Below are positions 3,644-7,572 of a stretch of DNA of 10,420 bases, piece by piece. A program made the position numbers and the translations under genes. The notes under the pieces were generated by a model that was not told where the DNA came from, searched no databases, and worked only from the letters and a program-made list of their open reading frames with translations. This DNA is from an alpha proteobacterium 3107 (GTDB taxonomy: Bacteria > Pseudomonadota > Alphaproteobacteria > Rhodobacterales > Rhodobacteraceae): assembly GCA_001483205.1 (NCBI GenBank), contig JPPB01000288.1:1-10420 (forward strand), read 5' to 3'. Numbering within the stretch: position 1 is the first letter of the stretch; every line of letters begins with the position of its first letter.

Positions 3644-4210
3644 TCAGTATCCGCTGTTCCCGGCGGGGCGCAGCAGACGGTCGAGCGATAACGGCCCCGC
3701 GCCCTTCAGCACCGGGATCAGCAGGATAATCACCCAAAACAGGCGCTGATCAAGGATAATGCCGTCCGGGAACCTGTCAAACCACGCCCCCAGGGTTTCG
3801 GGATGCGCAATCGCCCCGTGGCCGAACAGATCGGTCAGCGTCTGCACCGCCACAAACCCGATCATGCCCAGGGCGGCCAGCCGCGTCAGCAGGCCAACCA
3901 CGATGAGCGCCGGAAGAACGAACTCGGCAACCGTGCCCGCAACCACCACCATCCAGTGCCAGGTGGACAGTTGCGAGACATCATATCCGACCGCCTCCAT
4001 CGCCTTGGGGAAAATCTGGGCATATGCGCCGAGCGAGGGCGAAAAGATGCCGAAAACCCCGTCCCCCAGCTTGGTCACGGCGCTGCTCCAGTAATAGAAC
4101 AACAGGCTCGCGGCAAAGGCGAACCGGGCGAGTGTTGGCAGCAGCCAGCCTTCAAAGGCGCGTTCCAGCAGCCCGAAGACGGCATCGTGCAAGGATTGTA
4201 TAGTGTTCAT
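3644..4210 (-). CDS. bufD: DoxX family membrane protein of the bufferin cluster (BufD-like)
   Basis: The 188-aa integral membrane protein shows four hydrophobic segments at about 23-44, 84-107, 109-129 and 156-172, the usual DoxX layout. The segment after helix 1 holds SSAVTKLGDG and the loop after helix 3 is rich in His, Asp and Pro. Some DoxX proteins move electrons or thiols across the membrane; in bufferin clusters a DoxX protein is the regular fourth gene, but its task is not settled. Its ATG overlaps the bufC stop (ATGA), so translation is coupled. The cluster context raises confidence in the name; from sequence alone only 'DoxX family' is firm. Confidence 0.85.
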   Translation of the reverse strand: MNTIQSLHDAVFGLLERAFEGWLLPTLARFAFAASLLFYYWSSAVTKLGDGVFGIFSPSLGAYAQIFPKAMEAVGYDVSQLSTWHWMVVVAGTVAEFVLPALIVVGLLTRLAALGMIGFVAVQTLTDLFGHGAIAHPETLGAWFDRFPDGIILDQRLFWVIILLIPVLKGAGPLSLDRLLRPAGNSGY

Positions 4211-4977
4211 CCCTCGTCCTTTCCGATGATTTTCGTGATCGCCCCGCCGGAGAGCAAAGCCCCGAGCGTGGCGGCAAGGTCGAAACCGGCGGCGGCACCG
4301 GTCGCGGCATCAAGCGCCCCGGCAAAACTTTGCCCCGCCTGCAACCCGGTGACGAACACAGCCCCGCCCGGCGGAAGCCCGATCAGCACCGGGTCATGTT
4401 CGGGCCGGGCAATCAGCACATCCTCGGCGCGCGCCTCGGGCACTGTCCCGGCCTCTTCAGCACCCTCCATCACCTGACGCCACAGGGACAGGATCGGCCA
4501 TGGCGAGGACACAACCCTTGTCGCCGGGGCAATTCCGATCCGCGCCTCCATCAGCGCCTCGGTGGTCAGCGCCTGAAGCGCACCGGGGTCTGTGGCGCGC
4601 GCATCCGCCGCATGATAGGATTGCCTGCGCGCAAGGTCAATCCGCGCCAGATCAGGCAGATAGCCAACAGACGACAGGCTGTCGATTCCGGCCAGAAAAT
4701 CCGGCATTTCATCGCCGTAGAACATGATCAGCGGCGATTTCGGCGGGTGGCGGCGCAGGAACTGCCCGGCCAGAGCGCGAAAATGCCCCTCACCGACCCG
4801 GCGACACACAGAGGGAAACGCGGTGATCAGCGCCTCGGTCAGGCTGAGCACGACATTGTTGCGGTAGACATTGAACCGTTTGCCCGCGTTCCGCCCCTCA
4901 GGGTCGGTCAGCCCTGCCGGAACCTTCATGCCCGGATCGAGCATCGCGGCGGTGAACGCTGTCTGATCAACGCCCAT
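4207..4977 (-). CDS. bufC: DUF2063 bufferin maturation partner (BufC-like)
   Basis: The 256-aa product has the DUF2063 N-terminal domain: FNVYRNNVVLSLTEAL at about 35-50, AFPSVCRRVGEGHFRALAG at 53-71, HPPKSP at 77-82 and FYGDEMPDFL at 86-95, then a helical middle (YLPDLARIDLARR) and a variable C-terminal domain (about 150-256). Proteins of this type partner a DUF692 oxidase and are thought to deliver the precursor peptide to it. I choose ATG 4977 (MGVDQTAF) rather than an upstream in-frame ATG, because it gives a TGATG one-base overlap with the bufB stop and matches the family start. The downstream stop overlaps bufD. Substrate recognition is inferred from family and context. Confidence 0.88.
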   Translation of the reverse strand: MGVDQTAFTAAMLDPGMKVPAGLTDPEGRNAGKRFNVYRNNVVLSLTEALITAFPSVCRRVGEGHFRALAGQFLRRHPPKSPLIMFYGDEMPDFLAGIDSLSSVGYLPDLARIDLARRQSYHAADARATDPGALQALTTEALMEARIGIAPATRVVSSPWPILSLWRQVMEGAEEAGTVPEARAEDVLIARPEHDPVLIGLPPGGAVFVTGLQAGQSFAGALDAATGAAAGFDLAATLGALLSGGAITKIIGKDEG

Positions 4978-5837
4978 CAGGCCGCTGCCTTCTCCAGAAT
5001 ACGGGCGGCGCGTCGGGCCTCTTCGGCCAGCACCGGCCATTCCGGCACATCCGTGTCCCACTCGATCAGCGTCGGGCGCGCGCCTGCTTTCGAGATCGTA
5101 TAGTCGTAAAGCGCCCAGACCGGATCAACAACCTCAGCCCCGTGGCTGTCGATCAGAAGCGGCTGGCCGGTATCGTCGGCATCCTCATCATGGCCGCCAA
5201 GGTGAATCTCCCCCACCAGATGCAGCGGAAAGGCGTCGATATAGCTGTAGGGGTCGGTTTGCTGATTGGTGGCGGAAACGAACACGTTGTTGACATCCAG
5301 CAACAGCCCGCAGCCGGTGCGCCGGGCAATCCCGGCCAGAAAGTCCGTCTCTGCCATAGTGGTCTCGGCAAAGGCCAGATAGTTTGAGGGGTTTTCCAGC
5401 AGCATCTGACGACCGACGGCCTCCTGCACCTGGTCGATATGCCGGGCAACGCGGTTCAGCGTCTCTTCGGTATAGGGCAGCGGCAGCAGGTCGTTGAAAA
5501 AGTGGCTGTCATGGGTTGACCAAGCCAGATGTTCGGAAAACCGCGCCGGGTTCAGCCAGCCGACCAGATGCGCCAACCGCTTCAGGTGGTCCTGATCCAG
5601 CGGCCCTTCCCCGCCGATCGACAGGCCGACGCCATGGACGGAAAAGGCGAACCGCTCTGCCAGCGCGCGAAGCTGGGCAATCGGGCGGCCACCGTCACCC
5701 ATATAGTTCTCGGCGTGAATTTCCAGCCATTCCACAGGACCGGCGTTTTCCATAATCGCCGTGAAATGCTGCGGTTTGTAGCCGACACCGGGACAATCCG
5801 GCAACCGGTCAAACGGGTGTTGGGCGGCGTCAAGCAT
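4977..5837 (-). CDS. bufB: DUF692 / MNIO multinuclear iron oxidase (BufB-like)
   Basis: The 286-aa protein is a DUF692 TIM-barrel enzyme, the multinuclear non-heme iron-dependent oxidase family that includes MbnB and TglH. These enzymes use two or three irons and O2 to rework cysteines in peptides. Probable metal ligands and signatures are all present: [10 protein letters not shown] (37-46), [10 protein letters not shown] (67-76), SEHLAW (101-106), LLENPSNY (146-153), [10 protein letters not shown] (180-189), EIHLGGH (210-216) and DSHG (230-233). The best-supported substrate is the cysteine-rich precursor encoded 84 bp upstream; in bufferins the product is reported as thiooxazole. The ATG at 5837 has only a modest GCGGGA ribosome site. 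It is cytoplasmic (no signal peptide), as expected for modification before export. Confidence 0.93.
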
Positions 5838-5872
5838 CTGAACTGTCCCGCAAGGTGGCCAAACAGGGAAAG

Positions 5873-5897
5873 CATCCCCGCGGGAAGCGCGGGAATG
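5873..5897 (-). promoter_or_regulatory. Strong hairpin between bufA and bufB
   Basis: In the transcript, CATTCCCGCG pairs with CGCGGGGATG (10 bp including one G-U) around a 5-base loop. It sits 25 bases after the bufA stop. The following bases (CTTTCCCTGTTT) are only mildly U-rich. It would suit a partial terminator or a 3' stabiliser that lets the small precursor be made in excess over its modifying enzymes. Confidence 0.55.
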
Positions 5898-5921
5898 CGA
5901 GTGTCGGTTTCAGGGCCGCGC

Positions 5922-6224
5922 TCAGGAAGGCAGGTCGCGATTGATCGAAAATGCGACCGAGCCGCGGCGCGGATGGCCGTCTGCCGTGTCAGGCAGCGCG
6001 GCAGTTTCGCATTCTTCCTGCGAAACCAGCGTCCAGGCATTGCCCTGATAATCGACGGTCGACGTGCCTGCGCAGGTGGTGCCGGGACCGGCGGCGCAAT
6101 CGTTAGCGCCCGCCAGGGAAATCCCATAACATTTCACCTGACCGTCCTGTGCGGCGGCGGCATGAGCCGTCAGGGCCGCAGCAACGGCACCGGCGATGGC
6201 AAGGGTCTTGGCATGGTTGGACAT
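5922..6224 (-). CDS. bufA: DUF2282 bufferin-type RiPP precursor, secreted, four cysteines
   Basis: The 100-aa product has an N-terminal signal peptide (basic start, hydrophobic 8-20, likely cut after HAAAA at about 25) and then a DUF2282 core. The core holds [13 protein letters not shown] (31-43), [15 protein letters not shown] (50-64) and EEC (70-72), that is cysteines 32, 43, 51 and 72, and ends in RDLPS. This four-cysteine pattern is that of type-1 bufferins, which bind copper in the periplasm after an MNIO enzyme modifies some of the cysteines. I choose ATG 6224 because AAAGGAA lies about 7 bases upstream and it opens the signal peptide; an in-frame ATG 27 codons upstream would bury it. 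Its own promoter lies at 6292-6320. The modification and copper binding are inferred. Confidence 0.9.
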
Positions 6225-6291
6225 GTGATGTTCCTTTGCGTTGAGTGAGGCCGCTTGTTGCAAGCGACGGGCAGAACCTAACCCGCTTCTG

Positions 6292-6320
6292 CTTAAACAG
6301 GCCATTCACAACGCTGTCAA
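6292..6320 (-). promoter_or_regulatory. Predicted sigma70-type promoter of the buf cluster
   Basis: On the minus strand TTGACA (6320-6315), a 17-bp spacer and TTTAAG (6297-6292) form a good housekeeping-type promoter, which would start transcription about 60 bases before bufA. A second ATTGACA lies exactly 15 bp upstream (6330-6335), with further matching bases after it, making a direct repeat that could be a regulator site. I saw no clear ECF SigF-type element (GTAACC) here. Confidence 0.55.
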
Positions 6321-6465
6321 TCACGCCCGTGTCAATTCCTGTTATGATCCGTGAGGCGGTTGTGCGCTGTCCGTTGGTCAAAAGCGCAAGGCACCCGGCC
6401 CGGTGGTTTGCGCCGGACAGGGGGCGCACCGGTGTCACCGCCCTGATCTGGCCGGGGGCCGTGCC

Positions 6466-6972
6466 TTATGGCTCTTGTCGTGGCAAGACCCAGTTCGGGC
6501 GCGGAAAATGGCAGGTATAGCCGTTCGGAAAGCGTTCCAGATAATCCTGATGTTCCGGCTCGGCCTGCCAGAAATCGCCTGCGGGTTCGACATCTGTCAC
6601 CACCGGGCCGGGCCAGAGGCCGGAGGCATTGACATCGGCAATCATGCGCTCCGCTTCCGCCCTCTGCGCCTCATCGGTGTAATAAATCGCCGACCGGTAG
6701 GACGGGCCGACATCATTGCCCTGCCGGTTTGGTGTTGTCGGGTCGTGAATCTGAAAGAACAGCTCCAGCAACCGCCGGTAGGGGAGTGTTTCGGCATCAA
6801 AGATGATCTCGATCCCCTCGGCATGGGTGCCATGGTTGCGATAGGTGGCGTTCGGCACATCGCCGCCGGTATAACCCACCCGTGTCGAGACCACGCCGGG
6901 CAGCCTGCGGATCAGCGCCTGCATTCCCCAGAAACACCCCCCGGCCAGAACCGCGCGTTCCCCGGCCATCAT
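6466..6972 (-). CDS. msrA: Peptide methionine (S)-S-oxide reductase
   Basis: The 168-aa enzyme reduces the S-epimer of methionine sulfoxide in proteins and free methionine, using thioredoxin. The catalytic motif GGCFWG is at 11-16 with nucleophile C13. Other family marks are VGYTGG (32-37), [18 protein letters not shown] (72-89), YRSAIYY (92-98) and [14 protein letters not shown] (134-147). A second cysteine, C154 in [11 protein letters not shown], can act as the resolving thiol. The length suits the single-domain cytoplasmic form. Two adjacent ATGs open the gene and the first overlaps the msrB stop (ATGA), so the two reductases are co-translated. The stop is TAA. It lies 241 bp upstream of bufA on the same strand. 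Confidence 0.96.
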
Positions 6973-7421
6973 TCCGCCCCCTCTTTGAACAGGGGCAGAT
7001 AGTCGCCATAGCCTTCGGCCTCCAGCGCGCTTGCCGGAACAAAGCGCAGGGCGGCGGAGTTGATGCAGTAGCGCAGCCCGCCCCGGTCATGCGGGCCGTC
7101 GGGAAAGACATGACCCAGGTGGCTGTCGCCATGGGTCGAGCGGACCTCGGTGCGGGTCATGCCATGGCTGGCGTCGGTATGTTCGGTGATGTGGGCGGCC
7201 TCGACCGGCCGGGTGAAGCTCGGCCAGCCGCTTCCGCTGTCGAATTTGTCGGTCGAGGCAAAGAGCGGTTCGCCCGAGACAATATCGACATAAAGCCCGG
7301 CGCCGGTGAATTTGTCGTATTGGCCGGTGAAGGGGCGTTCGGTTCCGCTCTGTTGGGTGATGCGAAACTGTTCCGGTGTCAGGCGCGCGATGGCGTCCGG
7401 ATCCTTGGCATAGCGGCGCAT
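6969..7421 (-). CDS. msrB: Peptide methionine (R)-S-oxide reductase
   Basis: The 150-aa enzyme reduces the R-epimer of methionine sulfoxide, complementing MsrA. The catalytic motif RYCIN holds C119, the only cysteine in the protein. [13 protein letters not shown] (42-54), [11 protein letters not shown] (62-72) and [11 protein letters not shown] (100-110) are typical. The two CxxC pairs that bind structural zinc in many MsrBs are absent, and the usual resolving cysteine of SGCGWPSF is serine, so thioredoxin probably reduces C119 directly; such forms are known. I take ATG 7421 (MRRYAKDP), because AGGAGA lies about 8 bases upstream; a longer frame to 7478 has no such site and low-complexity sequence. 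The stop overlaps the msrA start. Confidence 0.95.
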
Positions 7422-7446
7422 TCGGGTCTCCTGTGGTTGCTGTCCG

Positions 7447-7474
7447 GGGGCGGGGCCGGGCATGGCCCCGCCCC
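7447..7474 (-). promoter_or_regulatory. Long GC hairpin in the msrB leader region
   Basis: GGGGCGGGGCC (7447-7457) and GGCCCCGCCCC (7464-7474) form a perfect 11-bp stem with a 6-base loop, 26 bp upstream of the msrB start codon. If it is in the transcript it lies just upstream of the ribosome site. It could be a leader control element or the 3' end of something transcribed toward sdaA. Confidence 0.4.
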
Positions 7475-7572
7475 GCATGTCAAGATGGGCAATGCCGGGG
7501 GGATTTTCCAGTCATGTTGCGTGCTGGCGGACGTTATCATTGCGCCCCCGGAGATCAACACCATCAGGCCGA

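Follow-up and report, generated by a model that had tools for sequence, protein, structure and literature searches.

A Buf1-type bufferin operon with a conserved upstream element in an alphaproteobacterial contig

Buf1 bufferins, the DUF2282 proteins, are described alongside the Buf2 bufferins as peptides with a signal peptide and four cysteines, made with a DUF2063 partner protein (PMC12452194). According to the same paper, the central two cysteines of Buf1 are modified, the outer two are joined in a disulphide, and the thiooxazoles serve in periplasmic copper sequestration. For a related product, a 5-thiooxazole with a loss of 4 H per modified cysteine is described (PMC13097082). An earlier note on the DNA studied here had named thiooxazole and copper chemistry, which agrees with what PMC12452194 and PMC13097082 give for Buf1/DUF2282 products. 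It had also called the usage of the cysteines in this species undescribed; at the family level this needs adjusting, as the modified central pair and the outer disulphide are given in PMC12452194.

In Caulobacter, the bufferin genes were copper-induced in all tested conditions and are marked as SigF-controlled (PMC8224329), and the bufferin operons are placed under the control of SigF, with NrsF as the anti-sigma factor of the SigF system (PMC3511200). In Cupriavidus metallidurans, whose gig operons are termed bufferin clusters (PMC12452194), deletion of gig in the parent strain is reported to be without effect, and Gig is given as the last of five copper systems (PMC10304878).

The DNA analysed here (the window) is one entire contig of 10,420 bases (C288) from a genome of 2.17 Mb in 337 contigs, which is given as 93% complete. 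Based on the ORF list and Pfam searches, bufA-bufB-bufC-doxX occupy 3644-6224 of the minus strand, in the gene order ABCD:

5922-6224, minus strand: bufA, Buf1/DUF2282 precursor, 100 aa
4977-5837, minus strand: bufB, MNIO (DUF692) bufferin maturase, Pfam PF05114 (MbnB_TglH_ChrH) at 7.2e-104 and NCBIfam MNIO_BufB
4207-4977, minus strand: bufC, MNIO partner protein of the DUF2063 family, Pfam PF09836 at 3.9e-23
3644-4210, minus strand: bufD/doxX, DoxX-family membrane protein, Pfam PF07681 at 7.1e-6 (27.0 bits vs 23.6)

The locus belongs to the Buf1 bufferin clusters, a kind that is already known. The four-gene operon described in the earlier note is present on the minus strand as it said, and the overlaps of 1 nt between bufB and bufC (4977) and 4 nt between bufC and doxX (4207-4210) were both found again in the ORF coordinates; bufB lies 84 nt away from bufA. 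The HMM check suggested in that note was run, with DUF2282, DUF692, DUF2063 and DoxX all scoring over their Pfam gathering scores. Gene content, gene order, family membership, the conservation of active-site residues and cysteines, and the conserved upstream element described below were obtained here directly. The best explanation for the locus, to which we assign a probability of about 0.92, is a Buf1-type bufferin biosynthetic operon whose product would be a thiooxazole-modified, copper-binding periplasmic peptide.

The comparison was based on 137 related loci, all selected for a DUF2282 or MNIO gene: 57 stretches from genomes with DUF2282, and 80 that are the best 80 of 543 by BufB similarity. 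The closest BufB relatives among these best 80 were from Rhodobacteraceae and up to 81% identical, and on that ground we place the organism in this family. By clustering, precursor, MNIO, DUF2063 and DoxX-like genes were present in 137, 137, 135 and 133 of the 137 loci, respectively. A tblastn search with the window precursor found matches in 135/137 loci at 1e-4 (all except L047 and L057), giving 140 ORFs, and five loci (L059, L074, L116, L120 and L140) contain two bufA-like ORFs each, i.e. tandem precursor genes. In a profile search of 101 genomes, a DUF2282 gene was detected in 56, including the genome of the window itself, which has a single DUF2282 match and a single MNIO match.

BufA matched Pfam PF10048 (DUF2282) at 2.3e-19 with 69.5 bits, the cut-off being 22.4. 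Its cysteines at 32, 43, 51 and 72 were named correctly in the earlier note and are aligned with invariant columns, as all four columns hold cysteine in 141/141 aligned precursors (the window and the 140 ORFs of relatives), and the spacing of 11/8/21 is common to 131 of these 140. An alternative in-frame ATG lies further out, at 6305, and would give a longer ORF; the start at 6224 is preferred because AAGGAA is located just upstream and because Met occupies that column in 111/141 rows, with the starts of the rows chosen by script. The N-terminal end contains basic residues, a hydrophobic stretch and A-x-A, which by eye looks like a Sec-type signal peptide with cleavage near A25/Q26, and the hydrophobic character of this stretch is conserved in the alignment. 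By NCBIfam alone BufA would be nameless, because its sole match, the BufA2 model, reached 24.9 bits, below the cut-off of 60, and no NCBIfam cut-off was passed. A Buf2-type precursor with 6 or 12 cysteines was not encountered, the window precursor having four; the EGKCG-type repeat is absent from it, and a search for PDB sequence matches (E up to 1) found none.

For BufB, the score of 377.3 with NCBIfam MNIO_BufB (cut-off 310) upholds the earlier claim of a bufferin-type MNIO, while the NCBIfam models for MbnB, ChrH, ApyH and HvfB all remained below their cut-offs on this protein (MbnB 45.8 vs 325). PMC8888699 gives the iron ligands of VcMbnB as H55, H91, E135, D165, N168, H194, D209 and E238, and mentions H211 as well. 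Pairing the two proteins by residue order and spacing, all nine BufB residues corresponding to the VcMbnB iron site are kept (H68, H103, E148, D181, N184, H212, D230, H232 and E259), and each is at least 98% invariant across 138 rows. In FonB, D249 is the catalytic base (PMC13097082), and by our own assignment D261 is likely to be its counterpart in BufB. The best PDB sequence match of BufB was 3bww, a DUF692 protein whose gene is said to sit in a likely RiPP locus (PMC13097082); for BufC, none was found at E up to 0.001. BufC scored 32 bits with NCBIfam HvfC and DoxX scored 23.3 with HvfX, below the cut-offs of 142 and 80, respectively, both being models of a different MNIO subfamily.

The window precursor does have peculiarities. 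In the profile search of 101 genomes, its DUF2282 score of 70.8 bits was the lowest in its own family, where all others reached at least 81. The two columns before the last cysteine (70/71), with G in 137/141 and T in 125/141 rows, are EE in the window, turning the near-invariant GTC into EEC, and the tail SLE (L in 134/141 and E in 118/141 rows) is SVA. This could reflect a decayed or relaxed cluster, with a precursor that has diverged and is now incompletely modified. However, the four cysteines, the iron-site residues, the open frames, the gene overlaps and the upstream element are all intact, and we consider such decay very improbable.

The gap between the first two genes has a feature of its own:

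5838-5921, minus strand: bufA-bufB spacer with stem-loop potential, MFE -33.6 kcal/mol, z -2.4

The corresponding spacers of the relatives, taken together with that of the window, are more stable than their dinucleotide shuffles, with a mean z of -2.54 and 84/133 under -2 (spacers shorter than 25 or longer than 200 nt, or unplaced, are not part of the 133), compared with a mean z of -0.72 and 21/140 under -2 for the 72 nt before bufA. The spacer could possibly act as a partial terminator or as an mRNA stabiliser setting the precursor-to-enzyme ratio, and, judged by its folding, the stem-loop would plausibly leave more precursor mRNA than enzyme mRNA.

Upstream of the operon and on the same strand are msrB and msrA (6466-7478, minus strand); downstream there is an aldehyde dehydrogenase gene of the succinate-semialdehyde-dehydrogenase type, followed by a cold-shock protein gene. 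The presence of msrB-msrA directly upstream raises the possibility that the operon is mainly concerned with something other than copper, with the peptide or DoxX shielding the envelope from oxidants or other metals in connection with methionine sulfoxide repair. In Caulobacter, the genes that copper induces in all tested conditions include a sulfoxide reductase pair as well as the two bufferin clusters, each assigned to SigF (PMC8224329), the Caulobacter homologues are reported to respond to dichromate and cadmium (PMC3511200), and DoxX has elsewhere been tied to oxidative or sulphur stress (PMC12452194). The msr genes are not conserved neighbours, however, with msrA beside the operon in 0/137 and msrB in 1/137 related loci. 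A coupling to msrAB through a conserved neighbourhood is ruled out by these counts, and a mainly non-copper role appears unlikely.

In the Rhodobacteraceae loci with full flanks (from L090-L169), the operon adjoins thrS in 60/60, an arsC-like gene in 54/60 and thyX in 30/60, none of which neighbours it in the window. Searches for thrS and the arsC-like gene found no match in the window's own assembly, an empty result that is no proof of absence, and a move of the operon away from the thrS locus is no more than a possibility. Among plasmid records, BufB relatives were found on 355 and BufA relatives on 238, with Escherichia and Klebsiella among them; 129 of the former plasmids and 103 of the latter are predicted to be conjugative.

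A motif search of the upstream regions identified the following in front of bufA:

6302-6344, minus strand: conserved operator-like element, 43 bp, reaching a little outside 3644-6320, the stretch covered by the earlier note

The input consisted of 83 regions of 250 bp upstream of bufA, from the loci found by BufB similarity and the window (tandem second copies included, the short locus L122 dropped); thinning by shared 10-mers left 76 of them. A single dominant de novo motif was obtained, with a log-likelihood of 1020.7 as the best of 25 starts at width 34; one shuffled set gave no more than 113.3 in 10 starts. Fifty-nine of the 76 thinned regions outscored the best of 760 shuffled regions, including the window with 42.1, all scored regions, that of the window too, being the motif's own training set. 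Three of the 17 misses (L116_1, L120_0 and L140_0) belong to the second gene copy of a tandem precursor pair, and shifted half-sites are visible in some others (L116_0, L120_1). The consensus over a width of 44 is T.ACa...ccT.ACGc...cGTGA..CACGggc.tGTGAaTgG, which can be read as two 14-bp palindromes, both imperfect and spaced 15 bp apart, with one extra half-site upstream.

The exact core, at 6306-6334 in the window, was present at 17 places in 17/101 genomes. Fifteen of these places immediately precede bufA and the other two are in genomes G058 and G015, whereas a reversed control pattern gave 1 match in the 101 genomes. Allowing one mismatch and adding two more bases, 14 places were found in 14/61 genomes, 13 of them upstream of bufA, against 4 matches for the control. 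Within the window's own genome, ten further places were found with up to two mismatches, none of them exact (control, 1 match), and the element may have minor additional targets there. The genome set and the motif-training loci are not independent, because G043 and L143, and likewise G007 and L116, appear to be the same records. This conserved control element in front of bufA appears to be what is new; our search of titles and abstract starts of mostly non-subscription papers found none on bufferin regulation in Rhodobacteraceae or Rhodobacterales.

Two other patterns were seen upstream of bufA. Where the main element is absent in L090, L100, L108, L112 and L118, there is another common motif, TTCGTGAG..CGTAACATCC-like. 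In L104, L105, L107, L124 and others, GTAAC pairs about 23 bp apart are located about 215-245 bp upstream of bufA, beyond the main element.

The earlier note had also placed the operon under its own promoter, for which there are two candidates:

6292-6320, minus strand: sigma-70-like promoter TTGACA-17-TTTAAG, 10/12 matches, TTGACA at 6320-6315 and TTTAAG at 6297-6292
6275-6281, minus strand: candidate -10 region TTAGGTT, lying at a nearly constant spacing downstream of the element in relatives

That claim can be retained in part: TTGACA-17-TTTAAG exists with its 10/12 matches, but its first hexamer TTGACA lies inside the conserved element, and it was not picked up by a stricter sigma-70 scan in which the second hexamer must end in T. 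Across 59 aligned regions, the columns of the candidate -10 region (tta) are weakly conserved. The bufA promoter is probably something other than a plain sigma-70 promoter.

The element could instead be a remnant of shared spacer ancestry and not an operator, with transcription starting from the sigma-70-like site, which does score 10/12 in the window. The operon is mostly found in one syntenic place, adjoining thrS in every locus with full flanks, and the neighbouring DNA is therefore homologous; the motif was, moreover, trained on those same loci and the window. However, the half-sites persist after the 10-mer thinning, with 59/76 regions above all 760 shuffles, and the element is kept in the window although the window is without thrS. 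As for the sigma-70-like site, among the 34 relatives listed there is one 10/12 site, and it lies elsewhere in the region. Shared ancestry with a sigma-70 start is in our view a rather unlikely explanation, and an operator is the preferred reading.

The distribution of NrsF also bears on the regulation. NrsF (PF06532) was found in 20/101 genomes; it had no match in the window's own genome, where the 93% complete assembly, from which thrS is also missing, leaves its absence unproven. Own-family genomes with DUF2282 number 40; the element is present in 23 and absent from 17, and NrsF is present in 0/23 element-bearing genomes vs 8/17 element-free ones, leaving 9 with neither (Fisher p 3e-4, uncorrected for kinship). 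In these counts G058 is element-bearing by a narrow margin (10.0 vs a threshold of 9.1), and G007 is element-free although half-sites are visible. Adding 15 genomes outside the family changes the table to 0, 23, 13 and 19, with G070, which has NrsF, left out as its precursor was unmatched.

These counts suggest that the same operon can be turned on in either of two ways, by the element with another regulator or by SigF/NrsF. There may be an even chance that the Rhodobacteraceae operon has been rewired from SigF/NrsF to a transcription factor that acts on a dedicated operator of two palindromes (TSACG-N4-CGTGA-like, 15 bp apart) and has about one target per genome, the window carrying such an operator. 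Close to bufA, an ECF sigma-like cluster recurs at 17 loci and an NrsF-like one at 15, both named from their sequences and the latter also from the PF06532 match positions. At the element-bearing loci, no recurrent nearby regulator was recognised on visual inspection of the initial 60 residues of one member per cluster, an inspection that could have overlooked one. The control site offers a bait for a regulator of copper or stress responses, possibly one that took over from an ECF sigma factor.

In the mechanism we propose, BufA would be made with a Sec signal peptide, and in the cytoplasm BufB, as a multi-iron MNIO, would together with BufC turn C43 and C51 into 5-thiooxazoles with a loss of 4 H each. 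After export and removal of the signal, a disulphide would link C32 to C72, and the mature peptide, about 75 aa long, would bind copper in the periplasm. DoxX would be an accessory membrane protein, and induction would occur through the upstream element by a regulator. The modification, the disulphide and the copper binding are carried over from the literature, and the induction is deduced from the sequence. At the family level there are good grounds for copper buffering, although its weight may be small; for this organism we infer it.

A bufferin cluster is now placed in one more alphaproteobacterium, and it can be compared with four named systems. Bufferin 1 of Caulobacter vibrioides/crescentus (CC3254-CC3257) is like the window in having DUF2282, DUF692, DUF2063 and DoxX in the same order (PMC3511200); it differs in its SigF/NrsF control, as the window genome yielded no NrsF and the upstream element is present instead. 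The gigPABT operon of Cupriavidus metallidurans resembles it in its four-cysteine secreted precursor, GigA, GigB with a DUF2063 domain and the DoxX-like GigT (PMC10304878), where GigA is the DUF692 enzyme by our own reading of the gene order. However, gigPABT is divergent from genes for an ECF sigma factor and a putative anti-sigma factor (PMC10304878), neither of which was recognised in the window. The EGKCG captophorins (fontiphorin and oxazolin) share an MNIO with a DUF2063-type partner, thiooxazole chemistry and a link to copper (PMC13097082), but have a repeat-type precursor without DUF2282, and the window proteins score under the HvfB, HvfC and HvfX cut-offs. The precursor and partner of methanobactin MbnB differ from those of the window and the window BufB is well under the MbnB cut-off, yet both enzymes belong to the same superfamily and have the same iron-site residues.
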